From positions 62,001 to 126,000 of the IMG/VR virus record IMGVR_UViG_3300017971_000214: a stretch of DNA of 64,000 nucleotides. One strand, 5' to 3'. Under the pieces are notes generated by a model. It did not search any database, had not been told where the DNA came from, and saw only the letters and a program-made list of their open reading frames with translations. The position numbers and the translations under genes were made by a program. The DNA comes from a virus. Below are positions 25,205-51,053 of the stretch, piece by piece (position 1 is the first letter of the stretch; each line of letters opens with the position of its first letter).

Positions 25205-25426
25205 ATGCTGACTGTATCGACACCAGTGATCCAGAACGAGCTGGAGACGGCGAAGAAGATCATCGAGAAGTGGCAGGAGAAGATCGAGATGCTGCCAGGC
25301 GTGAATGTTCCTGCGGGGGACCCGGCGGCTTTCGACAACTACATGCGCGAGTTCATCGGCGAGCTGCAGGTTGTCTCTGGCAAGTGCGACACGTTGGCTG
25401 AAGCGCTTTCGGGGTCGTTGCCGTGA
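25205..25426 (+). CDS. Small helical hypothetical protein
   Basis: 73 residues, ATG just after the preceding stop (AGTGACATG). Charged helix (ELETAKKIIEKWQEKIEML) followed by a Gly/Pro turn and a second helix. Its stop overlaps the GTG start of the ParB-like gene, so translation is probably coupled. Function unknown. Confidence 0.5.
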   Translation: MLTVSTPVIQNELETAKKIIEKWQEKIEMLPGVNVPAGDPAAFDNYMREFIGELQVVSGKCDTLAEALSGSLP

Positions 25427-26244
25427 CTGAGGCTGCTGAACAAGAAGGGTCGGTTGACGTCAACATCGCGGACTCCGCGACGATCGACGTGGACGACATG
25501 GAGCCGGTCGCTTGGAATCCCAACGAGATGAACTCCGAGGAGTTCGACATGCTCGTTGAGAACATCAAGGAGGTGGGCTTCATCGACTACCCACAGGTCG
25601 TCCCGATGGTGGACGGCTCCTACCGGATCATCGGTGGGGCACATCGGTGGCAGGCCGCCAAGGTGCTGGGGCTGAAGAAGATCCCTTGCGTCCTGTTGTC
25701 TCACGAGCGCTGGACGGACGAGGACTTGCAGAAGTTCGTCACGGTCCGGCTCAACACGCTGCACGGTCGCATCAACCCCGAGAAGATGGTGGCGCTTCAT
25801 CGGGAGATGGCCGCCAAGTACGGCGACAAGGCGATGCGTCGGATGTTCGCCTACACGGACAAGGCGGGGTGGCAGAAGATCGTCAAGCAGATGAAGAAGG
25901 GCATGAAGTCAGCCGGCATGCCTAAGCAGGCGCAGGACAAGTTCGAGGAAGCCACGAAGGACGCCAAGACCGTCAACGACTTGGGGCACGTCTTGAACCA
26001 CCTGTTCAACGAGTACGGCGACACGTTGGAGTACTCGTTCATGGTGTTCGACTACGGAGGCAAGGAACACCTGTACATTGCCATGAGCAAGAAGACCAAG
26101 CGGGTGATGGATCGGGTGATGGAGGTCTGCCGGAGCTGGGGTCGCGATGTGAACGAGGTCGTCGGGGAGGTCACCGAAGAGTGGCTAAAGAAAGCCGAGC
26201 AGATCGAGGACGAAGAGATCGACGCAGAGATAGACGCCAGCTGA
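25423..26244 (+). CDS. ParB/Srx-fold nuclease-like protein
   Basis: 273 residues from GTG 25423. N-terminal ParB-type domain: after DMEPVAWNPNEM and NIKEVGFIDYPQVVPM comes GGAHRWQAAKVLG at residues 71-83, a variant of the GERRxxA CTP/nuclease motif with His in place of Glu. The remainder is helical and acidic at the end. In phages such proteins act as DNA-binding or nuclease proteins as often as in segregation. No centromere-like repeats were seen next to it. Confidence 0.7.
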   Translation: MTEAAEQEGSVDVNIADSATIDVDDMEPVAWNPNEMNSEEFDMLVENIKEVGFIDYPQVVPMVDGSYRIIGGAHRWQAAKVLGLKKIPCVLLSHERWTDEDLQKFVTVRLNTLHGRINPEKMVALHREMAAKYGDKAMRRMFAYTDKAGWQKIVKQMKKGMKSAGMPKQAQDKFEEATKDAKTVNDLGHVLNHLFNEYGDTLEYSFMVFDYGGKEHLYIAMSKKTKRVMDRVMEVCRSWGRDVNEVVGEVTEEWLKKAEQIEDEEIDAEIDAS

Positions 26245-26309: not shown

Positions 26310-27035
26310 ATGCGCTCTCTACAGGAGAACATCGCCGTTGCTCGGGCTCTGATGGAGTCGAACGCCATCCGAACCCCCTCGGTTCGCGTCGCTGACGCCT
26401 GGCGCAAGACCATCCGAATGGGCGATCAGTACTTGGAACTTCTGACACAGGCGGCGCAGGCGGCTTCGAAGGCGGCGAAGGCCGATGACCCGGTGGCCTC
26501 CAGGCGTGCCAACTCGGACGTCTCGGGGGTCATGACGAAGTTCGTTCCTCTGACCAACAAGTTCTACTCGTCGCACAAGGATGCCATGCTTTTCATGGAC
26601 AAGCTGGGCGAGCAGTTGGACCTTCCGACGTACCGTCCGTGGCCCAAGAAATTGAAGTCCCCTGCTAACCTCACGTCGATGTCGGACGATGAGATCAGGA
26701 AGCAGTTGGAGAAGGCCGCGAGGAACGCCATCGGCGGGTGGCGAGACATGTTGGAGAAGGGCGCCTCTGCGTCCCGGATGTTCCGGGAGGCCGCCAAGAG
26801 CAAGGAGACGCCGAGCAACGAGTTTGTATCGGAGATCATCCAGGACGGGCTGAACTTCAGGGACTCGGTGGGCATCAACGTCTACGCACGGACGAACGGG
26901 ATCATCCGAAGGGTGGTCGAGCTGTCCAACCGCGCTTGGGAGGCCATGGCGCTGGAAGCACGGTTGGACGAGGGCTCGATGCTCCGGTGGAACCCGCCGT
27001 GGCGTGGTGAGATTGGCGACGCCGAGGTCATCTGA
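26310..27035 (+). CDS. Hypothetical protein upstream of giant protein
   Basis: 241 residues from ATG 26310, chosen because TAGGAG lies 8 bases upstream. An in-frame ATG at 26271 would begin at the promoter itself. Basic, helical protein (RSLQENIAVARALMESN) with regions of Lys/Ala, and a Trp-containing end. Its stop overlaps the ATG of the giant gene. Probably cotranscribed with it, perhaps a packaged or chaperone partner. Not recognised. Confidence 0.55.
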   Translation: MRSLQENIAVARALMESNAIRTPSVRVADAWRKTIRMGDQYLELLTQAAQAASKAAKADDPVASRRANSDVSGVMTKFVPLTNKFYSSHKDAMLFMDKLGEQLDLPTYRPWPKKLKSPANLTSMSDDEIRKQLEKAARNAIGGWRDMLEKGASASRMFREAAKSKETPSNEFVSEIIQDGLNFRDSVGINVYARTNGIIRRVVELSNRAWEAMALEARLDEGSMLRWNPPWRGEIGDAEVI

Positions 27036-30000
27036 TGGACGAGATCTTCTTCGCGCGCCCCGCGGGACTGGCTCTGTGGGAGGACGCCGCAGGCGTCCTG
27101 CTCGAAAGCACCGGCTTCGTCAATGAGGTCAAGATCATCGGAGTCAAGACGGACGACTCCGGCAACAAGAAGATCTTGGTCTGGAAGAACTACAAGTCCG
27201 GCCCCAAGCCCGCGTGGATTTCGTCGAAGAACCTCCACAAGCACGCGAGCGACCTGATGGACCCCCCAGAGGGGACCACGGATGAGTACCCCCCGGTGGG
27301 GGACATCTCCGACCCTGCGAGCTTCACCGGAAGCACCACCGACATCAAGCCCCTGCCAGGCAAGGAGACAGTTCCCGAGATGGGGGCCGACGTGTGGGTG
27401 CCTTCCGTTGCGCTGAAGAACCTTGCCAAGAAGGTCAAGGCCATGGGCCTGAAGCCTCAGGACACCTTCCAGAAGGCGGTTGCTGCCGGCGAGCCCATCC
27501 CGAAGGAGATCCCGAAGGCTGTCGGCCTGTCCGGGCTCCCCAAGGCGGACGAGCCCGCCAAGGCCCCTGAGACGCCTCCAGAGGCGCCGAAGGAGCCCGA
27601 GGCCCCCGAGCCCCCGGCAGAGCCAGAAGCGCCTCCAGAGGCCCCTGCGGAGCCCGCAAAGCCTGCTCTCGTGATGACTCCGGACGAGGTGGCGCAGGCC
27701 GCCAAGGCTGGGGACATCGACAAGTTGGATCAGAACGCTGAGAAGTTGGGGATCAAGGGGCGCGAGGAGCTGAAGAAGGCGGCCCTCGGCGCCCATGACT
27801 CGGGGGACTACGAGAAGGCGGCCAAGCTCGCTGGGGTGTTGGCGAAGGCATTCGAGAAGACGAAGGGTGCTAGCCACGCGTTCACCAAGGCGTGGGCGGA
27901 CAAGGCGCAGGAGTTTGCGAAGAAGGCGAGCGGGGAAGAGCCGGCGCCTCCAGAGCCCGAGAAGCCCAAGGCTGCGGAGCCTGGGGGGCCGATTGGGGAC
28001 GATGCTATTCAGGCTGCGTCTGTTTCCGGTGATTGGAGCCAGGTCGTAGCGAGTGCCAAGGAGCTTACTCCAGAGCAGATCAATACCGTCACCAACGCGT
28101 TCAACGCCGCATCGGCTGGAGACGATCACAAGAAGGCCGCAAGCGTGGCCGAGGCCATGGCGGAGATCCAGCAGGCGCGTGGGGAGGATATTTCGGCCAA
28201 GTTCTGGAAGGAGGACGCCGAAGAGGCCAAGAAGCTCGCGGGCCTACCCGTCGAGATGTCGGTTCCTCAGGTCAAAGACGCTGTTGAGGCCGGAGACATC
28301 GCCACGCTGAAGCAGAACGCCACGAAGCTCGGGGCCGCGCGAAAGTTCGTGGCCGCTGACATGGAGTTCGCCATTCAGGACGGCAACTGGAGCAAGGCGT
28401 CCGAGCTGGCTTCGATTCTCTCGGACTCCTACAAGGAGCACGGCATTCCGAGCATGGTTGAGTCCTATGCTCAGGCCGCGGAGAGCTACAAGAAGAAGGC
28501 AGAGGATCAGGCGGCGGCGAAGGATGCGGTCAGCGACGTCCAGGTAGACGACGCCCTCAGCTCCGGCAACTACGATGCGATCGTGGATAACGCCACCAAG
28601 CTGACGCCTCACCAGAAGAGCAAGTTCTGCGGGCACGTGGCGGACATGATGGTCGCGGCCGAGAAGGACCCCACCGCGGAGAAGGCGCAGAAGGTGGCGG
28701 AGGGGTGTGGTGCGCTGAAGAAGACCTACGAGGCGCTGGGCGAGGACACCATGGCGGAAGCCATGGGGGTCGAAGCGGAGAAGTGGGAGACCAAAGCAAA
28801 GGAGGCGCAGCCTTCGCCGATGGACGACTCAGAGATCGATCAAGCGGTCTCTGACGGCAACTACCAGAAGCTCATCAACAACGCCACGAAGCTGAGCGCG
28901 GACCAGATCGACAACGTAAAGGACGCGCACGAGAAGCTGTTCGATGTGGGCGAGTACGAAAAGGCGTCTGATCTAGCTAAGGCGATCTCTGAGGTAGAGA
29001 CCCAGCTGAAGGATGACTACGCCGCCACGCAGTGGGCGAAGAAGGCCCAGCAGCTCGGACCAGGATTCGCGCAGAACGAGTTGAGCAGCGCCATCGCTTC
29101 GGGGGACACCGAGGCGATCAAGAAAAACGCGGACTCGTTGGGGCTGGACGAGAAGTACCTCATCGCGAATGGAGCAGAGGAAGCGGCAGAAGCGGGCGAG
29201 TACGAGAAGGCGGCGAACCTTCTCACGGCTCTCGCGGAGGTTCAGGAGCAGAAGGGTGAGGAGAAGTCCGCGCAGAAGCTGAAGGCCAAGGCCAAGAACT
29301 TCCAGGCGCAGGCCGATCACGGGGAGGCGTTCTCCGAAGCGCTGGCGCAGGGCGACGCCGACTACATGGTGGCTAACGCCGAGAAGTTGTCGGCGCAACA
29401 GCGCGGCACCCTCGGGGAAGCTCTCACGAAGCTGGAGTCCGACCAGGATTGGGGCAACGCCGCGAAGATCGCCGAGGCCATTGCCGAGTCGTACAAGCAC
29501 GAGGACTCCCCCGCGGCCCCGTTCTGGGAGAACGAATCGAAGAAGTACGCCAAGCTCGCGGGGAAGGAAGTCTCTTCGCCCGTGCCAGAGCCGTTCAACG
29601 CTGCGGGGAATCTGACGCCTATGGCTGTTAACGCAGCCTTGGACAAGGGGGACTTGGACTTCCTAGCTGCGCACGCCGGCAAGTTGCAGGACAAGTCAGG
29701 AGTGCTGGAGGCATACACCGACGCGCAGTCTTTTGGGGACTGGGGGAAAGCCGCCAAGATAGCTGGGGTCATGGTGGCGCACTATGAGTCCAAGCTCGCT
29801 GGAGAGGAGCTGCCCGAGTCGCTGGCGGACACGTACCAGGCGGTTTTGGGAAACTGGCAGGGCGAGCAGGCTTTCGCGGCGGAGAAGATGGGGAAGGAAG
29901 CTCCTCCATCGGCGAAGGCTGCTGCTGAAGCGCAGGGAGAGTCCGCCTACACCAAGTACGGCTACGTCAAGGCAGCCGTGGCGGACAAGGCTGCGCAGAA

Positions 30001-33000
30001 CGGCGACTTCGACTTTCTGATGGAGAACGCCTCGAAGATGGGGAAGGCGTCTTTGGGGAAGGTGAGGGACGGGTTCGAGGTATCTCTGCACACAGGCAAG
30101 CCGGGCGATGCCGCCAAGTTCGCGGCGGTCATGGTGGCCCACTACCAGTTCAAGAAGAACGGCAAGAAGGCTACGTACTGGAAGGAGATCCAAGACGAGT
30201 ACGCAGCGGAAGCGGGAGGCGCAGAGGCGGGCGAGGTTCCTTCCAACGCTGACGTCGACAAGCTGGCGGAGCAGTACTCGGCCGCGCACAAGGCCAACGA
30301 CTTCGTACAGGCTGCAAACGTCGCCAAGAAGCTGTCGGGAGCCCTAGCGGCCAAGGGCGACGCGGCAGGAGCGGAGCTGTGGGGGAAGCTCTCGGACGAT
30401 GTCGGCAAGAACGTGATCGCCTCGGCTGTTTCCCCTGACGCAGAGGAGTCGAAGAAGATCGGCGACGAGCTGTTCGATGCCTCTTTGTCCATCGGGAAGG
30501 TAACCGAACTGGCAGAGAAGGATCTGTCCGACTCTCAGGTGATGAAGCTGGAAGAGGTATTCCAGCAGGCTTTGGAGGACGAGGACCACGGGAAGGCGGC
30601 GCAGGTTGCGGAGGCGCTATCTAAGATCCACAAGGACAAGGGCAATGAAGCGACGGCGGAGAAGTGGGCCGAGTCTGCGGCTTACCACAAGGATCTAGCG
30701 GAGAAGAAGCCGGAGGATCCGTACAAGCCCAAGGCCGCCGAGCCGGCCCCCACTCTGGAGGAGATGGAAGCGAGCGGCGTTCTGGTTCTTCCGTGGAACG
30801 CCAAGCCTGCGAAGGGTAAGGAGCACCCGACCGCGGCACAAGCCGCTTCAGCGCAGGGCACCTTGGGCCTGGCGGTGGACGAGTTCGTGCATCCCGTGTC
30901 CAAGGAGGTGTGGAAGGTCGTGGGGATCATCGAGAATGAGTACATCGACCCCAACGACGGCATTGTCTACGACAAGAAGACCGGAAAGCCCATCAAGGGC
31001 AAGGGCAAGTTCAACATCGTGGAGACGGGGAAGTCTGTCGAAGGGGAGCCCGCAGAAGCCGCTCCTTCAGGCCCCACGGAAAACTTCCCCATGCCCGAGC
31101 CGGCCCCTCCGCCTGCCCCGCCTACGCCAGTTCCGTCTTCGGCTAAGGATGCTGTGGACGTCATCAAGGCGACGCCGCTACCGAAGGGTGTTCCGAGCCC
31201 CGAAGACCTCACGTTGGAGGGGAGCGCCAATCACCTTGGAGGCGCTGGAACGAAGTACACGTACACGGACAAGGACGGGAACAAGTGGCTTCACAAGCAT
31301 GCCTACGCCAAGGGCAGCAGCAGTGCGGCAAAGCCCTACGCCATGATGGCGCAGCAAGTGTGGTCCCAGGTAGCACTTCGCGCGCGCGGGGAGCATCTAC
31401 CCATTGCGGCGATGGAGGTATCAGGCCCTGGTGGCAAGAAGGCCCTCGGTACGTTGCAGCCGCTGGTGGAACGAGACGCCAAGCAGCCTGACCTTCGCGG
31501 GGTGGATCCAAAGACGCTGTCCGACGAGGACCGTTCGACCATCGCCAAGGAGCATGTGCTCGACTGGCTGATGAGTCAGCACGACAGCCACGCGGCCAAC
31601 TTCATCCGTCGAGCTGAGGATGGGAAGATCTTCTCGGTCGACAAGGAGCAGGGCTTTCGCTTCTTCGGCTCGGACAAGCTGAGCATCGACTACGCGCCGA
31701 ACTCCGATCTCTACGGCGAGAACCCGCCCTTCTACAACAAGGTTTGGAGCGGCTGGGTCAAGGGTGACTACGACATGGACCCGAAGGGACTTCAGGAGAC
31801 GGTCGAAAAGATCGATGCCATCCCCGTGAAGGAATACATCGATATGATGAAGCCCTACGCGGAGACCATGTGGCCGGGGAAGCCGGACAAGCAGCTTGAG
31901 TTCTTGAAGGCCGCGCGGCGCCGCAAGCTCGACATCCGGAAGGACTTCGAGAGGTTCTTCACCGAGCTGTATCGGAAGAAGACCGGAGACGACGGCAATT
32001 TCACCTTCGACGCCGGATGGTCCGGAGACAAGCCGAGTGAAGAAGGACCCAAGGTCATCAAGCACACTGTCTCGGCCAAGGACTACATCAAGGTCTTTGC
32101 GTCCGAGCACGACACCACGATGAAGTGGGAGGAGTTCGACGACCCTCAGACAGGTAAGGACCCCTCCAAGCTCACGGTGAAGGTAGCCAACAGCGACACC
32201 AACGGGCAGAAGAAGCTGGAGAAGATGCTGGCGAAGACGGGGGTGTCCCCTCTGAACACTACGCCAGTCAAGGGCGGCTACTACACGATGCTCTTCGTGA
32301 ACGCCGAGGAGTTCAACAACGCCACGGTGGACTACGAGGAGATCCAGCAGCCGGTCAAGCCGGGCGACATCGCTCCGACGCCCAAGACCCCCCGTTACTT
32401 CCCAGACGACTACGAGCACGCGGTGGCCTCTTCGAACACCGAAGAGATCAAGAACCTTCAGAACATCTCGACGGGACGTGGAGGGAAGCGCTACGAGTCG
32501 GATGGTACAGCGGTGGAGGGAAGTTCTCTGCGGGCACGCCGTTACGAGGACAAGAACGGATCGTACTTCGGTTTCCAGTTCAAGCTGCGCCCGGAGATCT
32601 GGGAAGCTCTGCGGGACTCGGGGACTGGCGAGCCCTCCACGCTAAAGTTCAAGCAGTCGGAGTACATCGAGGCAAAGGACGCCTACGTCGAAACGGGCTC
32701 GACCATCGACACCGCCAATGCTCGACGTTGGGCGGTGGGATCCTCGGACATCCATTTGGTTCCTGGCAGTGAGGATAACAAGTCCTCCGACAAGTACTCC
32801 TACGTGGGCATGGTTCAGGCGAAGGTTCGCCCCAAGCCAGGACAGTCACCTTACGATGCGCTGGCGGAGTTGTTGGAGGAGATGAAGCCTGGGTTGGCGA
32901 AGGACGTGCTTCGGACCGCGACGCCCGAGGAGAAGGAGATCTGGAAGCTCAGCCAACTCCTGTGGGCGCGGGCACCGCAGATGGCAGACAAGCTGGAGGA

Positions 33001-33769
33001 GAAGGATCGGACCGTCAAGAACCTTCGCAAGAAGCTGAAGTCCAAGGGTGTGTCTCAGGAAGAGATCGAAAACACTGAGCTGCGTGAGGTGCTTCCGGGG
33101 TTTTCGACACATGTGGAGAAGGGTCGCTGGAAGAAGCTGCGCGAGAAGGGCGCACGTTTCGTTTTCCACGGCGCCGACCTGGGGTCGATCGTTTCCATCG
33201 TCCAGCGCGGGGCGCTGGGCATCAATGAGCGCAACGCGGCCGGCGTTCCCAAGACTGGCGTATCGTACAGCCAGGACGTGAAGACGGGTTCAGGCGATGG
33301 CGTGTTGGGTTACGTGGCGCACTCGGCCCAAGGCGGGAAGAGCCCTGGGTCCTACAGCTTCAGTAAGCAGGTTCAGGTCATCTTCGACCCGCGCGAGCTG
33401 GAACGCCTCGACGCCTACATGCATTACGGCGATTGCTACGGCACTTGCACGCCTTACAACAACGGCACGAAGTCGGGGTCGGTGTGGAACAAGAGGCAGT
33501 CTTTGGAGAAGCGTGTAGAGGGGCTGGCTAGCCAGGGCAGCTCGCACGAGATCTCGTTCCGCCGAGGCATCTCTCCCACAAGCATCCTTCGGCTCAACGT
33601 AGCGAACGAGACGACGCGGAAGAAGGTCATCAAAGACCTTCGAGCTGCAGGCATCGAGGAAGTGAACGGGCTGCCGGTGGAAGATCTCGTCGTCGTGGGC
33701 GGCTCCAACGAGGAGATCTACAAGAAGTACGTCGAGCCCATGATGACGGAGAGGCGAAATGCAGCCTAA
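27035..33769 (+). CDS. Giant multidomain protein (2244 aa) with helical repeats, kinase-like and putative ADP-ribosyltransferase-like domains
   Basis: N-terminus about 1-85 small domain, then Pro/Glu/Ala linker (165-210). Residues about 213-1228 hold about 11 diverged helical repeats of 75-95 residues: a half like SDGNYQKLINNATKL and a half like GEYEKASDLAKAI. A kinase-like domain follows (1380-1640): GGAGTKYTYTDKDGNKWLHK, DWLMSQHDSHAANFI (catalytic-loop D.H..N) and IFSVDKEQGFRF, recalling HipA/PI-kinase-type folds. After a middle domain (1690-1950), residues about 2040-2240 (RFVFHGADLGSIVSIVQRGA...) resemble ART-type enzymes. It resembles packaged polyvalent proteins. Both catalytic assignments are tentative. 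Confidence 0.7.
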   Translation: MDEIFFARPAGLALWEDAAGVLLESTGFVNEVKIIGVKTDDSGNKKILVWKNYKSGPKPAWISSKNLHKHASDLMDPPEGTTDEYPPVGDISDPASFTGSTTDIKPLPGKETVPEMGADVWVPSVALKNLAKKVKAMGLKPQDTFQKAVAAGEPIPKEIPKAVGLSGLPKADEPAKAPETPPEAPKEPEAPEPPAEPEAPPEAPAEPAKPALVMTPDEVAQAAKAGDIDKLDQNAEKLGIKGREELKKAALGAHDSGDYEKAAKLAGVLAKAFEKTKGASHAFTKAWADKAQEFAKKASGEEPAPPEPEKPKAAEPGGPIGDDAIQAASVSGDWSQVVASAKELTPEQINTVTNAFNAASAGDDHKKAASVAEAMAEIQQARGEDISAKFWKEDAEEAKKLAGLPVEMSVPQVKDAVEAGDIATLKQNATKLGAARKFVAADMEFAIQDGNWSKASELASILSDSYKEHGIPSMVESYAQAAESYKKKAEDQAAAKDAVSDVQVDDALSSGNYDAIVDNATKLTPHQKSKFCGHVADMMVAAEKDPTAEKAQKVAEGCGALKKTYEALGEDTMAEAMGVEAEKWETKAKEAQPSPMDDSEIDQAVSDGNYQKLINNATKLSADQIDNVKDAHEKLFDVGEYEKASDLAKAISEVETQLKDDYAATQWAKKAQQLGPGFAQNELSSAIASGDTEAIKKNADSLGLDEKYLIANGAEEAAEAGEYEKAANLLTALAEVQEQKGEEKSAQKLKAKAKNFQAQADHGEAFSEALAQGDADYMVANAEKLSAQQRGTLGEALTKLESDQDWGNAAKIAEAIAESYKHEDSPAAPFWENESKKYAKLAGKEVSSPVPEPFNAAGNLTPMAVNAALDKGDLDFLAAHAGKLQDKSGVLEAYTDAQSFGDWGKAAKIAGVMVAHYESKLAGEELPESLADTYQAVLGNWQGEQAFAAEKMGKEAPPSAKAAAEAQGESAYTKYGYVKAAVADKAAQNGDFDFLMENASKMGKASLGKVRDGFEVSLHTGKPGDAAKFAAVMVAHYQFKKNGKKATYWKEIQDEYAAEAGGAEAGEVPSNADVDKLAEQYSAAHKANDFVQAANVAKKLSGALAAKGDAAGAELWGKLSDDVGKNVIASAVSPDAEESKKIGDELFDASLSIGKVTELAEKDLSDSQVMKLEEVFQQALEDEDHGKAAQVAEALSKIHKDKGNEATAEKWAESAAYHKDLAEKKPEDPYKPKAAEPAPTLEEMEASGVLVLPWNAKPAKGKEHPTAAQAASAQGTLGLAVDEFVHPVSKEVWKVVGIIENEYIDPNDGIVYDKKTGKPIKGKGKFNIVETGKSVEGEPAEAAPSGPTENFPMPEPAPPPAPPTPVPSSAKDAVDVIKATPLPKGVPSPEDLTLEGSANHLGGAGTKYTYTDKDGNKWLHKHAYAKGSSSAAKPYAMMAQQVWSQVALRARGEHLPIAAMEVSGPGGKKALGTLQPLVERDAKQPDLRGVDPKTLSDEDRSTIAKEHVLDWLMSQHDSHAANFIRRAEDGKIFSVDKEQGFRFFGSDKLSIDYAPNSDLYGENPPFYNKVWSGWVKGDYDMDPKGLQETVEKIDAIPVKEYIDMMKPYAETMWPGKPDKQLEFLKAARRRKLDIRKDFERFFTELYRKKTGDDGNFTFDAGWSGDKPSEEGPKVIKHTVSAKDYIKVFASEHDTTMKWEEFDDPQTGKDPSKLTVKVANSDTNGQKKLEKMLAKTGVSPLNTTPVKGGYYTMLFVNAEEFNNATVDYEEIQQPVKPGDIAPTPKTPRYFPDDYEHAVASSNTEEIKNLQNISTGRGGKRYESDGTAVEGSSLRARRYEDKNGSYFGFQFKLRPEIWEALRDSGTGEPSTLKFKQSEYIEAKDAYVETGSTIDTANARRWAVGSSDIHLVPGSEDNKSSDKYSYVGMVQAKVRPKPGQSPYDALAELLEEMKPGLAKDVLRTATPEEKEIWKLSQLLWARAPQMADKLEEKDRTVKNLRKKLKSKGVSQEEIENTELREVLPGFSTHVEKGRWKKLREKGARFVFHGADLGSIVSIVQRGALGINERNAAGVPKTGVSYSQDVKTGSGDGVLGYVAHSAQGGKSPGSYSFSKQVQVIFDPRELERLDAYMHYGDCYGTCTPYNNGTKSGSVWNKRQSLEKRVEGLASQGSSHEISFRRGISPTSILRLNVANETTRKKVIKDLRAAGIEEVNGLPVEDLVVVGGSNEEIYKKYVEPMMTERRNAA

Positions 33770-39046: not shown

Positions 39047-39802
39047 GTGGCGAAGAAGGGCAAGAAGCGTCGATCCCCGGCGTTCACGAGCAAGCGTCCT
39101 GTAGGCAGGGAGCGGGGCTTCCAGAAGTTGCGGGCTCTCAAGTGCTTCGACGAGGTCCACCGGCGGATTCTCGAAGGTTGGGGGATGCCGGCCCTGGCGC
39201 AGTACATCCAGGAGGAGTGCGACGAGTACACGGAGGTTTCGGCGCAGGGTTTGATCTCCGTATTGCGGCGCTACCGCGACACCATTCCTCCGGCCCAGCT
39301 CATTCAGAAGCGCATCCCTTCGAAGTTTGCCAGTGCGCAGGAGCAGGTGGACGAAGGACTCGACGAGCTGCAGGAGCTGTGGAACCTGTACCAGCTCCAG
39401 ATGGAGCGTTTGGGCATCGAGTTGCAGAACGAGCGCACCATCAAGAAGCTCTTCCCGTCGATGACGCAGGAGATTCGGACGACCCGAGAGATCTTGAGCA
39501 CCATCGCTGAGTTGAAGATGGACCTCGGGCTCAACAATCGGCAGATCGGAACGGTCGACATCGACGCGCACATCACGGCGCATGTAGCCGAGCGTTTCTC
39601 CAATCCGAGGGTGGCGCAGGTTCTTGCCAGCCCTGAGAAGCGCCGGAAGCTGTTGGGGATTGCCAAGCAGCTTGCCAAGAAGGCCGATGCGCCGGTGGTC
39701 ATCGACGCGGAAGCGGAGACGGTGGAGGCCAAGGAGGCTCCGCCCGAGTCCGGTCCCGGTTCGCCTGAGCCCCCATCCGAGCTGCAGGAGACGGGCTCGT
39801 GA
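39047..39802 (+). CDS. Probable terminase small subunit
   Basis: 251 residues from GTG 39047. After a basic N-terminus (AKKGKKRRSPAFTSKR), FDEVHRRILEGWGMPALAQY resembles a helix-turn-helix region, followed by a long coiled-coil-like helix (QEQVDEGLDELQELWNLYQL and onward) and a Pro/Glu-rich tail. Size, layout and position right before TerL fit small terminases, which bind packaging sites as ring oligomers. It is not confirmed by a strong motif. Stop overlaps the TerL start. Confidence 0.55.
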   Translation: MAKKGKKRRSPAFTSKRPVGRERGFQKLRALKCFDEVHRRILEGWGMPALAQYIQEECDEYTEVSAQGLISVLRRYRDTIPPAQLIQKRIPSKFASAQEQVDEGLDELQELWNLYQLQMERLGIELQNERTIKKLFPSMTQEIRTTREILSTIAELKMDLGLNNRQIGTVDIDAHITAHVAERFSNPRVAQVLASPEKRRKLLGIAKQLAKKADAPVVIDAEAETVEAKEAPPESGPGSPEPPSELQETGS

Positions 39803-42800
39803 TCGTCGACCAGGACGGCCGGTCCCTCAGCAAACGAACGGCCGAAGAGGACGAGGATACGCTACGCAAGGAGCTGGCAGGGCTGTCTCCTGACGAGCGC
39901 GAGGCTCTGATGCTCATGCTCGCCGAGTTGGAGGAAGAGCCCGAAGAAGGCGAGAAGCAGCTCATCCAGCTCGTCAGTGAGGCCGAGTGGAAGAGGGTCC
40001 CGGTCGACATCGAGACGTTCGTCAAAGACGAGTACTACCTCGGCAACACCTGTGCGGTGCTCTATCCGCAGCTTCTGGAGGACATGAAGGAGCTGTTTGA
40101 GGGGGGCGAGTACCAGGAAGCGGTGCTCACCGGCAGCATCGGTTACGGCAAGTGCGTGGACCCGGACACGGAGATCTTCGACCCTGCCCGCGGCCGACGC
40201 CGAGCTGGTGACCTCGGAGAGGATTGGTCCGTGGTGTCGATGGATCAGGACACCGGGAAGCTGTGCGTGTCGTCTGCGTCAGCTTTCGCTTCCGGGACCA
40301 AGGAATGCATCCAGCTTCGGCTCGCCGGAGGGCAACGCATCGATCTCAGTTACGACCACCCGGTGTTCACTGCTCGTGGTTGGGTTCCAGCCGCGAAACT
40401 TCGGTTGGACGACCTCGTGGCGACGCCGCGCCGGTTGCCGGGGCCAACCACGCCCCTTGAGATCTCTGACGACGAGGTAAAGCTCGTGGCGTACCTTGCT
40501 GGGGATGGCGGCTGTACCGGGAACACCACCTTCACGAACATGGATCCGGGCGTCCTCCAGGAGTTCTCCGAAGTCGCTCTGGTGTGCGCTGACACTTCTC
40601 AGTACGATCGTTTTCACCGGCACATCGAGCCCGAGGTGACGGTTGCGGAAGGCGCGAATAGTGGGCAGGCGACGACGCTTCAGGTGAAGGGTATTCGACA
40701 CCTCGTGAAGCGCCACGGGATGGATTCTCGCGCCAAGGAGAAACGCGTCCCCGCAGAGTTCTACCTACTGCCCGATCGTCAGGTGGCGCTCTTCTTGAAC
40801 CGTTTCTGGGCCTGTGATGGGTCCATTGGTGTGCAGGGTCCCTGGACCGTCGAGACGACGTTGGCGTCGGAGGGTTTGGTAGACGACCTTCGGTTCTTGC
40901 TGCTCCGGTTGGGGGTGCTTTCTCGGAAGTGCTTCAACCCGAAGAAGATCGAGAAGAAGAAGTACGACGCGTGGACCCTTTCGATCAGCGGCGCTGACAA
41001 CGTGCGTGCTTTCCTCGAAGCGGTCGGTCCTGTCTTCTCGAAGGAAGAGGCGTGTGCTGTTGCCATGGACCGGGCGGTGAGCACCAAGTCGAACACCAAC
41101 GTCGACATCGTGCCGGTGGGTATTGAAGAACTTCGGGAGATCCGAGGAGAGTTGGGGGCTCAAGGCGCGCGACTCACCCAAGACTTTGGTTGTCCCGCAG
41201 GGCAGCGTCTCAGTCGTGAGAGGTTTCGTCGCTTGGTGCAGGAGCGCGACTACAGCGGCAAGTACGCGTGGTTGGCCGACACGGACATCTTGTGGGAGCG
41301 GGTGCGGGAGCTGAAGCAGCTTGAGGCGCGGCCCGTGGTGGACTTGTCGGTTCCTGGCGACACCAACTTCGTAGCCAACGGCATCGTGATCCACAACACC
41401 TTCTTCGCGTCGATTGGGATCTGCCGCATCCTTTACGAGCTGTCGTGCATGAACGACCCGCATCGGTCTCTCGGACTCGCACCGGACACCGACATTTCGA
41501 TCGTGTGCTTGAGCGTCAACGAGGCTTTGGCCATGAAGGTCGCGTTCGACAACGTGGCCACCAAGCTGAAGGCTAGCCCGTACTTCGAGGAGCACTTCCC
41601 CTTCAAGAGCACGAAGAAGGAGTTCCGCTTCCCGCACAATGTGTGGTTGGCCGCGAGGGCGACCACGGATTCCTCCGCCTTGGGTCTCAACGTGATCGGA
41701 TCTTTGCTCGATGAGACCAACTTCATGGACCGCGGTCGCAAGGTAGACCCGCGCCACGGCGCCGTCGACCACGCGGAGATGCTTTACACCGGTATCATGC
41801 GTCGTATGAAGTCCCGTTTCGGCCGCAGCGGGAAGCTGCCCGGAATGATCTTCTTGGTCTCGTCGAAGAAGACCCGAGACGATTTCACGGCCCGGCGCAT
41901 CCGGGAGTCCCGCAACGACCCTCACGTGTTCGTCCGAGACTACGCGCTATGGGACGTCAAGCCTTCGGCGTACTACAGCAGCAAGAAGTTCTTTGTCATC
42001 TGCGGCAACGAGCAGACCCCTTCGCGCATTCTTCAGAAGGACGAGGAGCAGCAGGTCAAGAGCCAACTACCCGACGACGTGACGCTCATCGAAGTCCCCG
42101 AGGACTTCCGGTTCGACTTCGAACACGATCTGGAAGGTTGCTTGACTGGAGACACTCTTATTCCGTTGTTGGATGGAACGGAGGCACGGATCGAAGACTT
42201 GGTAGGTCGGGAGGAGTTCTGGACGTACTCCTACACCCCGGACGGACGGTTTTGTCCGGGTAGAGGTAGCGATGCTAGGTTGACCAGGAAGAACGCGAAA
42301 TTGGTTCAGGTGACCTTGGACAACGGCGAGGTCGTCCGTTGTACATCCAACCACCCGTTCATGCTTCGTTCCGGGGAGTACAAGGAGGCCGGAGAACTAC
42401 AGCCTGACGACTCTTTGATGCCTTTGTACTGGCGCAGGGACAGGTATGGCTATGAGCTGATCAAGTCAAATGCGGGTGGTAAGTGGATCCATACGCATCG
42501 GTTGGTAGCCAGGGAGGCGTTGAACGAGGGGGGAGCACTGAGCAGCGCTCTGGTTGTCCATCATCGCAATTTCGACCGCCTGGACAACTCTCCGTGGAAT
42601 TTGGAGGTGATGACGGAAGCTGAGCACGCCGAGTTGCATCGGAGGTACTTGCATGAGGGGATGCTCTCTGAAGAGTCGAAAGCGCGGGCGCGTGCAGGGC
42701 GGAAGGCTCGGCGTGAGGCGAATCCGGAAGAAGCACGGGCGAAGTCGTTGGCGGCGTTGAAGAAGGCTAGTGAGGTCTACAACAGCGACGCCTACGATCA

Positions 42801-44232
42801 TTCGGAGGTAGCTAGGAAGGTCGGGAAGACGTATGGGTGGGGGGCCGAAAATCCGTCTGCGGCGATTGTGGAGGCGCGTAGCCGGAATGGAACCAAGAAC
42901 ATCACGAGGTTGAACAAGTCAGATCAGAACCCGGCACGTAAACCCGCCAACAGGGCCGCGTCGGCGGCACGTCTGGCAGAGGCGGTTCGATCAGATCCTA
43001 GAATGCGTGTAGGCCGTATCAAAGGATTGCACACACGTTGGCACACCGGACCGTTTGAGACTTGCCCTCGTTGTCAGGAGTCCCTCCGGGCGGATGGTAA
43101 CAACCACAAGGTGGTCAGTGTGGAACCAGCCGGTCGGGCTGACGTGTACGACATCACTGTTGAAGGAGTACACAACTTTGCGTTGTCGGCAGGGGTGGTG
43201 GTCCACAATTCCATTCGGGACATTGCGGGCGTGGCCACTGTGGCCATCAGCCCGTTCATCCAGCGTCGCGAGAAGCTGGTCTTCAACGCCGAGCGCCGCC
43301 ACCCCTTCAGTGTTGAGATCTACGACCCCTCGCGACCGGGAACCTTCTTGTGGGATCTGATGGTCCGCAAGATGCAGATGAAGGACTTCTCCGGTCATGT
43401 GCACGAGGCTCTGAAGCCGATCGTGAACCCGAAGGCCCCCCGGCACATCCACATCGACCCTGCATACCGGAAGGACGCGGTAGGTATTTGCATGTCGCAC
43501 ATCTCGGGGTGGACGGACGTTGTGCGGCGAGCTGAGGACGGCTCTGTTTTCCAGGAGCGCCAGCCACGGTTCTTCGTCGATCTCATTTTGCAGGTCGTTC
43601 CTCCGGTGGGGGACGAGATCGTCCTGGGAGATCTGAGGCGTCTGGTCTACTCCCTGAGCGACCATGGCTACATGATCACCTTGGTTACGATGGACACCTG
43701 GCAGTCCGTCGATTCGTTGCAGCAGCTCAAACAGAAGGGGTACGCCGCGGAGCACCTGTCGGTGGACACCAAGATGGACCCTTACGAGCATCTGAAGTCC
43801 GCTTTCTACGAGGATCGGGTCGACCTCTACAACTACCCCAGGCTATTCAAGGAGCTGCGGGAGCTGGAGAAAGACGAGAAGAAGAAGAAAGTCGATCACC
43901 CACCTCGTGGCAGCAAAGATATTGCAGATGCTTTGGCCGGTTGCTTGTACACTCTGGCCAAGCATCAGGCGACGCAGCCCCTTCCGATCTTATCGGGGCT
44001 GTCGTATTCTCCCGATGCTTGGATGGAGGAACAGCTACATGCCGCCGCAGCGCACCAGCGAGGATCCCAGGGAGCGCCGGGAAACCGGTTCTACCCCGAG
44101 AACCCCCAAGCTGGTGCAGGGGGCGGTTACCCGCTCCAGGTACTGCCTCCGGTGTTGGGGGGTGGACCGAACGGTTCGCCGGGCGGAGGCGGCCCTGATT
44201 GGGGCGGCGGCTGGAACCCTTCATCTCTGTAG
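39799..44232 (+). CDS. terL: Terminase large subunit, precursor with two inteins
   Basis: 1477 residues from GTG 39799. After splicing of residues 119-533 and 781-1137 it is about 705 residues. P-loop SIGYGK|TFFAS is split by intein 1. Walker B is GSLLDETNF (Asp638 in the precursor), and FLVSSKK follows as motif III. The nuclease domain has HIDPAYRKDAVG, LVTMDTWQSVD and KDIADALAG with the acidic residues of an RNase H-like packaging nuclease. Powers DNA translocation into proheads through the portal. The end is a Gly/Pro-rich tail. Confidence 0.95.
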   Translation: MIVDQDGRSLSKRTAEEDEDTLRKELAGLSPDEREALMLMLAELEEEPEEGEKQLIQLVSEAEWKRVPVDIETFVKDEYYLGNTCAVLYPQLLEDMKELFEGGEYQEAVLTGSIGYGKCVDPDTEIFDPARGRRRAGDLGEDWSVVSMDQDTGKLCVSSASAFASGTKECIQLRLAGGQRIDLSYDHPVFTARGWVPAAKLRLDDLVATPRRLPGPTTPLEISDDEVKLVAYLAGDGGCTGNTTFTNMDPGVLQEFSEVALVCADTSQYDRFHRHIEPEVTVAEGANSGQATTLQVKGIRHLVKRHGMDSRAKEKRVPAEFYLLPDRQVALFLNRFWACDGSIGVQGPWTVETTLASEGLVDDLRFLLLRLGVLSRKCFNPKKIEKKKYDAWTLSISGADNVRAFLEAVGPVFSKEEACAVAMDRAVSTKSNTNVDIVPVGIEELREIRGELGAQGARLTQDFGCPAGQRLSRERFRRLVQERDYSGKYAWLADTDILWERVRELKQLEARPVVDLSVPGDTNFVANGIVIHNTFFASIGICRILYELSCMNDPHRSLGLAPDTDISIVCLSVNEALAMKVAFDNVATKLKASPYFEEHFPFKSTKKEFRFPHNVWLAARATTDSSALGLNVIGSLLDETNFMDRGRKVDPRHGAVDHAEMLYTGIMRRMKSRFGRSGKLPGMIFLVSSKKTRDDFTARRIRESRNDPHVFVRDYALWDVKPSAYYSSKKFFVICGNEQTPSRILQKDEEQQVKSQLPDDVTLIEVPEDFRFDFEHDLEGCLTGDTLIPLLDGTEARIEDLVGREEFWTYSYTPDGRFCPGRGSDARLTRKNAKLVQVTLDNGEVVRCTSNHPFMLRSGEYKEAGELQPDDSLMPLYWRRDRYGYELIKSNAGGKWIHTHRLVAREALNEGGALSSALVVHHRNFDRLDNSPWNLEVMTEAEHAELHRRYLHEGMLSEESKARARAGRKARREANPEEARAKSLAALKKASEVYNSDAYDHSEVARKVGKTYGWGAENPSAAIVEARSRNGTKNITRLNKSDQNPARKPANRAASAARLAEAVRSDPRMRVGRIKGLHTRWHTGPFETCPRCQESLRADGNNHKVVSVEPAGRADVYDITVEGVHNFALSAGVVVHNSIRDIAGVATVAISPFIQRREKLVFNAERRHPFSVEIYDPSRPGTFLWDLMVRKMQMKDFSGHVHEALKPIVNPKAPRHIHIDPAYRKDAVGICMSHISGWTDVVRRAEDGSVFQERQPRFFVDLILQVVPPVGDEIVLGDLRRLVYSLSDHGYMITLVTMDTWQSVDSLQQLKQKGYAAEHLSVDTKMDPYEHLKSAFYEDRVDLYNYPRLFKELRELEKDEKKKKVDHPPRGSKDIADALAGCLYTLAKHQATQPLPILSGLSYSPDAWMEEQLHAAAAHQRGSQGAPGNRFYPENPQAGAGGGYPLQVLPPVLGGGPNGSPGGGGPDWGGGWNPSSL
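40153..41397 (+). mobile_element. TerL intein 1 (415 aa, LAGLIDADG, in the P-loop)
   Basis: Begins CVDPDTEIFDP, block B SYDHPVF, and ends FVANGIVIHN followed by Thr. Dodecapeptide-like motifs VAYLAGDGGCTG and LNRFWACDGSIG. Inserted at GK^T, the same position as the DnaB intein, with several matching segments (TLASEGLVDDL against TLASEKMVQQL). All splicing residues present. Confidence 0.95.
42139..43209 (+). mobile_element. TerL intein 2 (357 aa, HNH endonuclease type)
   Basis: Begins CLTGDTLIPLLDGTEARIED, block B TSNHPFM, and ends LSAGVVVHN followed by Ser. Instead of LAGLIDADG motifs it carries VVHHRNFDRLDNSPWNLEVM, an HNH catalytic segment, followed by SEESKARARAGRKA, reminiscent of the DNA-binding NUMOD motifs of homing nucleases. 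Inserted in DLEG|SIRDIAG, between the ATPase and nuclease domains. Confidence 0.93.
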
Positions 44233-44265
44233 TCGTAGACCGGAGGGTCGTGTAGGGAGGTAAGG

Positions 44266-44613
44266 ATGTCCAAACCGCTCAACAAGCTGATCGAGGATTT
44301 GAGAATCCTCATGCTCGAACCCCCGTGGTCTCACTTCGTGAAGCTGCTTCGCATGGTCGACTCGATGGACGAGTCGCCGGAGCTGGAGCGGCTGACAAAC
44401 GACGAGCTGCGTTCCTTCAAGGGGTTCCGCATCACGTTGCATCGCGCCGCCACCATGGAGCCCGAGACGATGCTCAAGCACGTCGCTGCGCATTGGCTCG
44501 GGACGGTGGAACAGGCCGTTCGGAAGCTCCCCATCGGGTCGGAGGCCGTCAAGGTCATGGACGACATGATGGGTTACTCGGGCGGCGGCGTGACGCACGG
44601 GATGTTGACGTGA
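44266..44613 (+). CDS. Hypothetical protein after terminase
   Basis: 115 residues with a strong GGGAGGTAAGG before ATG 44266. All-helical, with MDESPELERLTNDELRSFKG and a Met/Gly-rich end. Stop overlaps the next GTG. A small packaging or head-assembly accessory is possible by position. No motif recognised. Confidence 0.55.
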   Translation: MSKPLNKLIEDLRILMLEPPWSHFVKLLRMVDSMDESPELERLTNDELRSFKGFRITLHRAATMEPETMLKHVAAHWLGTVEQAVRKLPIGSEAVKVMDDMMGYSGGGVTHGMLT

Positions 44614-44945
44614 GGCATACACGGCGCAAGCGGCTCGTTGAGCGGGTGCTTCGGGAAGGGCCGATCAGCACCGGAGTCGTGCTGACTACTCCGGACGCCA
44701 TGTCCCAGCGCGAAGCTCTTGCTGCTGCGGAGGGGGTCAAGCTGAACGGCGTCCTGCGGGACATGGGCACGCTGGCAGGTCGAGCGTTGGCCGATGAGCT
44801 GGAGGTCGAGCAACTGCGCCCCGCAGACTACTCGGAGTGGCACGAGCTGAGCGTCAGGGTTCGTGAACGTCTAGTGCAGCGCCTCGCCCGCGGGTGTAGA
44901 GAGTTCGACGAGGCCCTAGCCATGGCTCTACGGGGGCGTGGCTAG
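44610..44945 (+). CDS. Hypothetical protein before portal
   Basis: 111 residues from GTG 44610 overlapping the upstream stop. Basic, helical (RHTRRKRLVERVLREG and RVRERLVQRLARGCREF). Lies 32 bases before the portal start. Unrecognised. Confidence 0.5.
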   Translation: MRHTRRKRLVERVLREGPISTGVVLTTPDAMSQREALAAAEGVKLNGVLRDMGTLAGRALADELEVEQLRPADYSEWHELSVRVRERLVQRLARGCREFDEALAMALRGRG

Positions 44946-44977
44946 CGGCGGGACGTTAGCGCATTCAAGGGGACGCC

Positions 44978-46810
44978 GTGGGATTCTTCTCCAACATAGC
45001 CAACAGGATCAGATCAGCCTGGACCAAAGACAAGGAACAGGTTGCGATCCAACTCGCCAAGGGAGCCACGGCCGCAGGCTACCCGGCGACGGGCTACGAC
45101 ATTCTTCAGGCTTACGGCTATGAGGTCGTGGCCGACTACCTTCGGCTGGAGCAAGACCTGCTCGCGAGGTACGTCGACTACGAGGAGATGGACGACTACC
45201 CGGAGATCAGCGCGGCCATCGACATCTTCGCGGACGACGCGACTCAGCCGGACACGCAGCTCAACCGAACGGTGTGGGTGACCTCTCCCAACCAGAACAT
45301 TCAGACGACGCTGGACGACATGCTCAACAAGCGTCTGAGGATCGACGAGGAGATTTGGGAGATCGCTAGGACCATCGTCAAGTACGGCAACGACTTCGAG
45401 GAGCTGTTGGTCACGGGCGAGGGCGTGGTCGGTTTGAACTACCTTCCGCCTCCTACCGTGCGGCGCATCGAAGGCCCTCGCGGCGAGCTGTACGGCTTCA
45501 TCCAGGACTTCGAGGGCCGCTTCGGCTGGTCCCCCGAGGACTTCAAGACGATCCTTGCCAAGCGCACGGCCGCTATCCAGGCGAGCCAGTTCCAGGGCGC
45601 CATTGACGCCGCATCCATGCCGGCTGTGGCGGCGTTGGAGGACTGGGAGGTGGTGCACTTCCGCCTGCGCGGCAAGCACCGCCGGAGCATCTACGGCTAC
45701 TCGGTACTGGAAGCGGCCCGATGGATCTGGAAGCGGCTCATGCTTCTGGAGGACTCGGCACTCATCTACCGCCTGCAGCGGGCGCCTGAGCGCTACGCTT
45801 TTTACGTGGACGTGGGCAATCTTCCGGCTCCTGAAGCCTTGGCTTACGTCAACCGCGTTCGGCAGCAGTACCGAAAGAGGAAGTACGTCAACCCGTCCAC
45901 GAACAAGCTCGACCTGCGGTACGACGCGCTGTCTCCGGACGAGGACTTCTTCTTGCCTACGAGGCAGGGGCAGGAAGGAACGAGGATCGATGTCATCAGC
46001 TCGCCCCAGTGGCAGCACATGGACGACATCGAGTATTTCCAGAACAAGCTGTTCTCTTCGATCAAGATCCCGAAGGCGTACTTGGCTCAGGACGACAACA
46101 CGGCTCGGTCTGTGCTGTCTTCGGAGGACGTTCGGTTCGCCCGTACCGTGATGCGCATCCAGCGCGAACTTCGCAACGGGATGCGGAAGATGTGCCGCGT
46201 TCACTTGGCGGCCATCGGCGTCGACCCGCATCAGCAAGAGTACGAGGTGAACATGACTGTTCCCTCGTCGATCTTCGAGCTAGCGCAGTTGGAAGTTCGG
46301 AATGCTCGCGCCGACCTAGCTTCTCGGATGCGGGAGTTCATGTCGTTGTACTGGGTCTACAAGAATGTGTTCGACCTAAGCGACGAGGAGATCAAAGCCA
46401 TCGAGGCTCAGCGGGAAAGCGATCAGGAGAACGAGGCGGTGTGGGGAGCCCGTGCCGAGATGGCAGCTCAGAAGGAACAGGGGGGCGCCGAGGGCGAAGG
46501 CGAGGGCGGAGGTGGGGGAGCCCCCCCAGGGATGTTTGCGGGGTCCGAGCCCCCGACTGGCGCCGAGATGAAGCTCATTCGCGACTCTCGCCAGCTCGCC
46601 CGACGTTTGAACGGGGGCCGACGCTCGTCTCTTCTGAGCCCTGTTCGACGAGGATCCGAAAGGGAACTGATGGCGGGCAGGAACACCGAGGCGGAGAAGA
46701 GGGCGGCGGACAAGTTGGAGCGTCTTCTTCGCAACGACGTGGCCCTGAAAAGGTCTTTGAACGAATTGGGGTCGTTGGTGCGTGATCTCGCTCGATCCCC
46801 AAGGCGTTAG
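44978..46810 (+). CDS. Portal protein, T4 gp20-like
   Basis: 610 residues from GTG 44978. ALEDWEVVHFRLRGKHRRSI, YGYSVLEAARWIWKRLMLLE and the later FEDSALIYRL-type run match the gp20 portal family, as do RKYVNPSTNKLDLRYDALSP and PKAYLAQDDNTARS. The C-terminal 100 residues are Gly/Glu-rich then basic. It forms the dodecameric DNA channel at the head vertex and docks the terminase. Position after terminase fits. Confidence 0.9.
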   Translation: MGFFSNIANRIRSAWTKDKEQVAIQLAKGATAAGYPATGYDILQAYGYEVVADYLRLEQDLLARYVDYEEMDDYPEISAAIDIFADDATQPDTQLNRTVWVTSPNQNIQTTLDDMLNKRLRIDEEIWEIARTIVKYGNDFEELLVTGEGVVGLNYLPPPTVRRIEGPRGELYGFIQDFEGRFGWSPEDFKTILAKRTAAIQASQFQGAIDAASMPAVAALEDWEVVHFRLRGKHRRSIYGYSVLEAARWIWKRLMLLEDSALIYRLQRAPERYAFYVDVGNLPAPEALAYVNRVRQQYRKRKYVNPSTNKLDLRYDALSPDEDFFLPTRQGQEGTRIDVISSPQWQHMDDIEYFQNKLFSSIKIPKAYLAQDDNTARSVLSSEDVRFARTVMRIQRELRNGMRKMCRVHLAAIGVDPHQQEYEVNMTVPSSIFELAQLEVRNARADLASRMREFMSLYWVYKNVFDLSDEEIKAIEAQRESDQENEAVWGARAEMAAQKEQGGAEGEGEGGGGGAPPGMFAGSEPPTGAEMKLIRDSRQLARRLNGGRRSSLLSPVRRGSERELMAGRNTEAEKRAADKLERLLRNDVALKRSLNELGSLVRDLARSPRR

Positions 46811-46825
46811 TAGGGATCCGTCTTA

Positions 46826-46855
46826 TTGACATGGTTCAGATGGTGCAGGTAGGGT
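46826..46855 (+). promoter_or_regulatory. Putative sigma70-type promoter
   Basis: TTGACA at 46826-46831, 18-base spacer, TAGGGT at 46850-46855. The next gene has a GGGAGG Shine-Dalgarno before ATG 46873. It would start transcription of the head genes. Confidence 0.5.
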
Positions 46856-46872
46856 TGGGAGGCATTGAGCCC

Positions 46873-47808
46873 ATGAATCGCTATATCCCCCTCGAAGAGA
46901 TCAAGAAGCTGACGGCAGGCAGCTACGAGCATGTCATCGCCGTTGTCGAGAAGGTCGTACAGGAGAACTCAGAGGGGATCTTCGGGAAGGCGATCGGAGT
47001 TCGGTTGCTAGGAACCTTTCCTGGGTTCGCCATTGCTCTTTCTGAGGAAGGGAGTTTGGCGAGGATCCAGTTCGAGCGATCTGACGACGGCTCCGTTCGT
47101 ATCTCGAAGCACGAGGAGCTGGAGCTTCCGAGCTTCGAGAAAGATCGTCTGGAGGACTACGCTCGAAGTCAAGTGCGCCAGGCAGTGGAGGCTTGGCACG
47201 CCGGGCGCGTGGAAGAGGCTCGTCAGATTCTAGCCGCGGTGTCGCCTTACATCGGGGAGAAGCTGCCCCGGTCTCAGGACGAGGACGTGGTGGAGTCGTT
47301 GGTGTCAGCTTTCCAGGCCGAGCGGCCATGGAAGCAGATGTTCAAGGAGAGATCCGAGAACTTCCGCAAGGCGCTGGCGGCTGAGGAGCTGACGCGGTTG
47401 GACGAGTCGCGAATGGAAAAGAAGTTCGCGGCGCTGTACAACGGCACGATCTCGGAGGACCGAATGGCTCGGTACGACGAGGTTGTGAGATCAGACCTCG
47501 CTTACCTCACGGCCCGAGTAGAGTCGCTAAGAGATCTTGCTTCGTCCAGTTACGAGGCCCTAAGATCTGTGATAAGGTCCGAGGACTTGGCGGAGGCCGC
47601 GGTCTCCACCTTGGCCTTGTTCGCCGAAGATCTTGTTTCCGATCTCCGAAGACTTCACACCGTGATCACTGAGTCAGCGAGAAAGCTAACCAGGACCGAT
47701 TGCCTCGGCAAACTGTACGACGTCGTAGCCGAGGGGATGTACGAATACGAGATCGCCGGCCGTTTCGTTTCGGCCATGTCGACGAGACTTTGCGAAGCCA
47801 GCACCTAG
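46873..47808 (+). CDS. Hypothetical head-region protein
   Basis: 311 residues from ATG 46873 (GGGAGG upstream, whereas the ATG at 46831 lies inside the promoter). Early HVIAVVEKVVQENSEGIFGK and FPGFAIALSEEGSLARIQF, later long helices (KKFAALYNGTISEDRMARYD). Located between portal and scaffold, so probably an assembly or internal protein. No family recognised. Confidence 0.55.
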   Translation: MNRYIPLEEIKKLTAGSYEHVIAVVEKVVQENSEGIFGKAIGVRLLGTFPGFAIALSEEGSLARIQFERSDDGSVRISKHEELELPSFEKDRLEDYARSQVRQAVEAWHAGRVEEARQILAAVSPYIGEKLPRSQDEDVVESLVSAFQAERPWKQMFKERSENFRKALAAEELTRLDESRMEKKFAALYNGTISEDRMARYDEVVRSDLAYLTARVESLRDLASSSYEALRSVIRSEDLAEAAVSTLALFAEDLVSDLRRLHTVITESARKLTRTDCLGKLYDVVAEGMYEYEIAGRFVSAMSTRLCEAST

Positions 47809-47818
47809 GAGAACGAAG

Positions 47819-49213: not shown

Positions 49214-49215
49214 AT

Positions 49216-49395
49216 GAAGCCTGGCGTGCTCGCCGGACTGCGTACCGGTCGGGCCGCCTGGAGCTGATAGGCTTCGAGAAGGACGTCAAAGATCCGCCGA
49301 ACAAGAGGAAGCACCGACTGACCAAGGGACTGAGGAACCGCTCCGCGATTTGGGCCACCCCTTTCCGGAGCAACTTTCGCTGGCGAGTTCACTGA
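49216..49395 (+). CDS. Possible small basic protein, start codon unclear
   Basis: The frame 49216-49395 reads like a protein (GRLELIGFEKDVKDPPNK, then KHRLTKGLRNRSAIWATPF), and its TGA overlaps the ATG of the protease gene (TGATG), the coupling used throughout. There is no ATG, GTG or TTG in frame, only CTG at 49258 and 49264. It could use CTG, be fused by -1 frameshift to the acidic protein, or result from a sequence error. The gap between annotated genes is 181 bases. Confidence 0.35.
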   Translation, partial: EAWRARRTAYRSGRLELIGFEKDVKDPPNKRKHRLTKGLRNRSAIWATPFRSNFRWRVH

Positions 49396-51005: not shown

Positions 51006-51053
51006 GGTCGACGGACGGGCACAGCGAGAACGAGAGATACCAAGGAGATAACA

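Follow-up and report, generated by a model that had tools for sequence, protein, structure and literature searches.

A giant protein of a T4-like myovirus combines predicted kinase and DarT/KptA-like ADP-ribosyltransferase folds and is a candidate head-packaged effector

Polyvalent proteins are large multidomain phage proteins that carry host-modifying enzyme domains (PMC5512222). It is established that polyvalent proteins packaged in the head can carry ADP-ribosyltransferase (ART) domains and that ARTs are encoded near myovirus head genes (PMC5512222, PMC9503650, PMC5576092), and temperate phages are known to have MuF toxins that bear such domains (PMC5576092). A clade of polyvalent-protein kinases has lost the C-terminal subdomain and carries an insert between the catalytic His and Asp (Iyer et al. 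2017, PMC5512222). DarT, a DNA ADP-ribosyltransferase in which the key residue is a glutamate (PMC11281641), offers a further point of comparison. So does gp54 of Mycobacterium phage McProf, whose gene adjoins the portal gene and which is annotated as a fusion of a minor capsid protein and an ADP-ribosyltransferase. T4 Alt, an ART of the R-S-E type, has no kinase domain. A search of the literature outside most subscription journals found no published description of the kinase reported here paired with a DarT-like ART.

The giant protein described in this work is encoded at 27035-33769 (plus strand) of a 64,000-nucleotide stretch of DNA (the window), which represents positions 62001-126000 of a linear virus record of 126,260 bases. 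Reading of the window DNA revealed one uninterrupted open reading frame of 2244 codons, free of stops and frameshifts, which is also intact on the parent record and is found as an identical copy in a second, independent IMG/VR contig. The position, the length and every motif given for this protein in the initial annotation were recovered in the translation. The source phage is a T4-type myovirus, an assignment based on its T4-like major capsid protein, portal and tail sheath; a protease was identified as well, and the parent record ends within the tail genes. In the gene call made in this analysis, the giant gene lies inside a co-directional run and overlaps both neighbours (Table 1). The upstream one, g141, whose start is placed by the script gene call at 26310 (giving 241 aa), has 40% identity to its positional counterpart in one of the two closest relatives (L015) and, apart from a weak match to AbiEi, gave no antitoxin-like match.

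The giant gene is found among replication genes (RuvC, SSB, ParB-like and DNA polymerase), ~6 kb before the terminase gene, which opens a block of packaging and head genes that the initial annotation had not mentioned. The large distance from the tail genes that it had noted was confirmed; with these genes ~24 kb away and an enzyme-like C-terminus, a tape-measure role, already regarded as unlikely, is rejected. Pfam searches found PF04233 (MuF) nowhere on the contig and neither a MuF nor a VG15 domain (PF04233/PF25310) in the giant protein. The whole protein gave no match to Pfam, NCBIfam or PDB sequences beyond RecX_HTH1, which was dropped as below threshold, and a sole, sub-threshold match to PHROGs, to a family of unknown function. 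Elsewhere in the window, the terminase large subunit gene (39799-44232) carries two inserts absent from L015, at residues ~120-532 and, with a match to HNH, at residues ~783-1134, which are probably two inteins, and a UvsX-like recombinase (18641-20881) contains a LAGLIDADG-type insert (residues ~360-549), absent from the other closest relative (L131), which is a probable intein.

Table 1. Domains of the giant protein and neighbouring genes, in window coordinates
Feature	Coordinates	Strand	Details
g140, ParB-like nuclease	25423..26244	+	upstream neighbour, conserved
g141, partner gene, 254 aa	26271..27035	+	stop overlaps start of giant gene; counterparts in L015 and L131
N-terminal domain, residues 1-165	27035..27529	+	conserved; 62% identity to L015, 57% to L131
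Helical repeat region	27674..30700	+	repeat profile
Short conserved stretch, residues 1250-1313	30782..30973	+	common to L015 and L131
Kinase-fold domain (predicted), residues 1388-1655	31196..31999	+	K1421, H1516-D1517, H1519, N1522, D1536
Middle region, residues 1660-2030	32012..33124	+	alpha+beta
DarT/KptA-like ART-fold domain (predicted), residues ~2036-2225	33140..33709	+	H2045, S2077, D2081, invariant E2172
g143, 142 aa	33759..34187	+	start overlaps end of giant gene; no family match
Packaging/head genes, downstream of giant gene	39799..52553	+	large terminase, portal, protease, major capsid protein
Portal	44978-46810	+	within downstream head block
Protease	49395-51005	+	within downstream head block
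Major capsid protein	51054-52553	+	within downstream head block
Tail sheath	58027-61080		tail region of window

The protein begins with a domain for which no family match was found, followed by a long helical repeat region. This region spans residues 214-1222 and is built of ten full units of ~85 aa, starting at residues 214, 319, 407, 499, 595, 679, 763, 858, 976 and 1141, and a partial one (residues 1070-1124). A profile HMM built from the ten proposed units and evaluated by leaving one out gave 41-60 bits per unit, whereas 200 shuffles of each unit reached no more than 10.5 bits, in agreement with the earlier count of about 11 helical repeats. In the shorter full-length proteins of L015 (1336 aa) and L131 (1326 aa), the N-terminal domain and all that lies beyond residue ~1250 are retained, with a single degenerate repeat copy in between, and the repeat rod is therefore an expansion in the window lineage.

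The kinase-like domain, originally proposed from a D.H..N motif and a later VDKE, was borne out by structure prediction and by conservation of the motif residues. In an AlphaFold2 model computed with a 29-sequence alignment (pLDDT 91.9, pTM 0.88), the N-lobe has five strands, helix C is present and the C-lobe is helical; a Foldseek search of the PDB returned protein kinases (E ~1e-5, probability 1.00), with low TM-scores. The D.H..N motif corresponds to HDSHAANF (D1517, H1519 and N1522), and the Asp of VDKE is D1536. D1517, H1519 and D1536 are identical in all 29 aligned sequences; K1421 is kept in 28, the one replacement being Arg, and position 1522 is always Asn or Gln. As modelled, the domain is of the protein-kinase-like fold, with a beta-rich N-lobe, helix C, the Lys, the catalytic Asp and the metal Asp. 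Its weak Pfam matches lean toward HipA_C, PI3/PI4-kinase and Fam20C, and the predicted kinase is therefore atypical. At the helix-C position that holds Glu or Asp in nearly all other sequences of the alignment, the window clade has Gln, which is a caveat for the predicted kinase activity. The domain falls outside the clade of Iyer et al. 2017, having a helical C-lobe in the model and a contiguous HDxH in 29/29 aligned sequences.

No fold match was found for the middle region (residues 1660-2030); L015 and L131 share it, and the MuF-type relatives show weak conservation of it. The C-terminus was recognised by none of the family libraries searched, Pfam included, had no match above the PF14487 (DarT) cut-off and, used alone as a tblastn query, had no phage match. 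A model of residues 1660-2244 is of moderate confidence (pLDDT 71, pTM 0.63). Its best fold match in the PDB is DarT1 with NAD+ (8baq; E 1.4e-3, probability 1.00), and the next are DarT2 of T. africanus (E 1.3e-2), M. tuberculosis (E 4.7e-2) and Thermus (E 6.8e-2). A tRNA 2'-phosphotransferase is also among the top matches (E 6.5e-2), and an unrelated homing endonuclease (E 2.4e-2) is interspersed among them. In profile comparisons with hhalign, for which trimmed alignments were used, untrimmed ones being uninformative, the C-terminal family scored 31.3 against 16 DarT sequences, where 30 column-shuffled profiles reached 18.4 at most; with a larger sequence set the score was 24.8 and the highest of 60 shuffles 16.5; control families scored 14-17, and the probabilities were low, at 31% and 7%. 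The invariant Glu2172 aligns with the DarT glutamate. The relation to DarT is proposed because two weak-to-moderate methods, fold match and profile comparison, agree. On the model, the C-terminal domain of ~190 residues is a divergent ART with a fold nearest DarT and tRNA 2'-phosphotransferase; the predicted fold and the putative catalytic Glu place it in the ARTD/DarT-like part of the ART superfamily. The ADP-ribosyltransferase resemblance claimed in the initial annotation stands at the level of the fold (DarT1, DarT2, tRNA 2'-phosphotransferase), with the correction that the type is DarT/KptA-like and not the Alt/VIP2 type usual in phages. That annotation was to be given up if structure prediction produced no kinase or ART fold; the models contain both. 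PADLOC found no defence-system match for either domain.

The kinase domain recurs on ~35 viral contigs. A search with residues 1388-1649 gave matches at 34 viral loci, in twelve mycobacteriophage records (~30% identity), in two bacterial contigs assembled from metagenomes and in 28 plasmids, of which 25 are from Streptomyces. Large plasmids of Streptomyces, Kitasatospora, Mycolicibacterium and Euzebya (L050, L051 and others) carry the same domain in hypothetical proteins. It also occurs as a stand-alone protein of 293 aa in a 114-kb virus contig (L020:9911-10792) and at the N-terminus of Phrappuccino gp195 (L006:5938-12030), where several apparent ART-like repeats, unrecognised by Pfam, come after it; the gp195 gene adjoins one annotated as a virion structural protein. 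Eleven of the 27 non-redundant kinase-domain proteins are fused to a head domain, Phage_Mu_F in six and VG15 in five. In many of the proteins an ART comes after the kinase, and it is of either of two types whose profiles show no detectable similarity to each other: ADPrib_exo_Tox, present in 9/27 proteins, takes the place of the DarT-like domain of the others. The association of the same kinase with either of two unrelated ART types is an argument for ART function of the C-terminal domain. Relatives of the C-terminal domain, found via the kinase loci, are of three types, namely that of the window protein, L015 and L131, that of L034-L045, sitting in 2.1-2.8-kaa proteins, and the MuF type (L016, L019, L021 and 48 loci), which profile comparison joins with a probability of 96-100%. 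His2045, part of an FHG motif, is found in L131 and in all MuF-clade members examined; at this position L015 has Asn, and the L034-L045 clade Val.

By gene context or by fusion, most relatives are tied to head proteins. In L016 and L019 the order is terminase, portal, giant and capsid protein, and the McProf gene also lies between the portal and capsid genes. The giant gene adjoins minor-head and capsid genes in L034, L040, L041, L044 and L045; a minor head protein gene precedes it in L041, L044 and L045, and in L045 at least, scaffold and capsid genes follow. The MuF-type phages L016 and L019 have large DNA methyltransferase genes (L016:13400-15772, L019:15495-19067) that separate the gene of the MuF-kinase protein from that of the capsid protein. 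The closest relatives keep the ParB-gp141-giant order. In L015 the gene order of the window is matched from RuvC to portal, with DNA polymerase, terminase and portal after the giant gene; in L131 the match is confined to the upstream genes, with no terminase in the next 6.5 kb.

Compared with the described systems, the giant protein resembles McProf gp54 in that one large protein carries a kinase-like domain, homologous between the two (31%), and behind it a C-terminal ART, but it lacks both its N-terminal VG15 and its ADPrib_exo_Tox-type ART. The MuF-kinase-DarT-like proteins of uncultured phages (L016, L019, L058-L104) share the order of kinase, middle region and DarT-like C-terminus; they differ in belonging to another phage type and in carrying MuF and SAP-like repeats where the giant protein has its N-terminal domain and helical repeats. 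DarT is the nearest solved fold of the C-terminal domain, with the catalytic Glu aligned, whereas by sequence the domain is not PF14487 and it has no DarG partner, no DarG-like macrodomain being seen beside the gene. T4 Alt is likewise an ART of a T4-like phage, and head-packaged delivery of the giant protein is proposed by analogy with it. No N-terminal motif shared with Alt was seen, and when a T4-type capsid-targeting sequence was sought, the T4 capsid protein cleavage region was found to be absent from the capsid protein of this phage. The polyvalent-protein layout suggested at the outset holds in part: kinase and ART folds are predicted together in one 2244-aa protein, and the relatives are fused to MuF or VG15 or lie in head modules, often with the ART next to the kinase. 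The kinase, however, is not of the Iyer et al. 2017 clade, and the gene itself is ~6 kb from the terminase and without MuF.

We propose, with moderate confidence, that the giant protein serves its T4-like myovirus as a polyvalent effector with two enzymes, most likely packaged in the head and injected with the DNA. The kinase fold and the conservation of its active site, the ART fold, the repeats and the head association of the relatives are established computationally; packaging, which we infer from the relatives only, catalysis and target belong to the proposed mechanism. The N-terminal domain and the repeat rod would be targeting and spacer parts. The kinase domain would phosphorylate one or more host targets, and the DarT/KptA-like domain would split NAD+ with Glu2172 and move ADP-ribose onto, or process phosphate on, nucleic acid or protein. 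The protein would most likely be put in the head at assembly and enter the cell with the DNA, like T4 Alt, disabling host functions or defences as infection starts. The same genome encodes, outside the window, a nicotinamidase-like protein (L007:3814-4434) and a clear nicotinate phosphoribosyltransferase (L007:7492-8664), an NAD+ salvage pair that would recycle the nicotinamide released by the ART but could equally serve as a defence against host NADases.

Packaging is opposed by the lack of MuF and VG15, the position amid replication genes and the L131 locus. A rival reading is an early-made intracellular enzyme for host takeover or self-regulation, comparable to the T7 gp0.7 kinase or T4 ModA/ModB, which would never be packaged; the RuvC, SSB, ParB-like and DNA polymerase neighbours, the lack of MuF in protein and contig and the stand-alone kinase protein of L020 favour it. 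We regard it as unlikely, though a serious contender, as most relatives are fused or adjacent to head proteins, DNA polymerase, terminase and portal come after the gene in L015, and 2244 residues with a long repeat rod are unusual for a soluble early enzyme. The two-enzyme reading is weakened by the helix-C Gln, the variable His2045 and the moderate C-terminal model. The first two of these, together with the growth of the repeats from one copy in L015 and L131 to about eleven, fit a structural or ejection head protein in which the repeats do the work and the enzyme domains are decayed relics. This is improbable, given that K1421, D1517, H1519, D1536 and E2172 are retained, that the kinase is 57% identical to that of L015 and that the frame is unbroken. 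A toxin of the MuF polymorphic type, acting in superinfection exclusion or against competitors with g141 or g143 as immunity protein, would agree with the ART-bearing MuF toxins of temperate phages (PMC5576092), the toxin fold of DarT and the small conserved neighbour g141, but is highly improbable given head genes of T4 type, a g141 that lies before and not after the giant gene and has only the weak AbiEi match, and no DarG-like macrodomain alongside. T4-type phages are best known as virulent.

Head-packaged ARTs and kinases are each already known as phage takeover tools. In the proteins described in this work, a single conserved kinase domain goes together with an ART in the heads of many unrelated phages, the ART being swapped between two unrelated types, and this pairing and swap predict a joint function of the two domains, for which the giant protein offers clear active-site residues. 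More speculatively, and with a likelihood well below even, the giant protein may represent an undescribed head-delivered module in which an atypical HipA/PI3K-like kinase and a DarT-like nucleic-acid ART are injected with the genome as writers of phosphate and ADP-ribose that act on the nucleic acid of the host, with a fold that bacteria turn on phages. A DarT-like enzyme on the phage side would make a phage weapon of an anti-phage fold.
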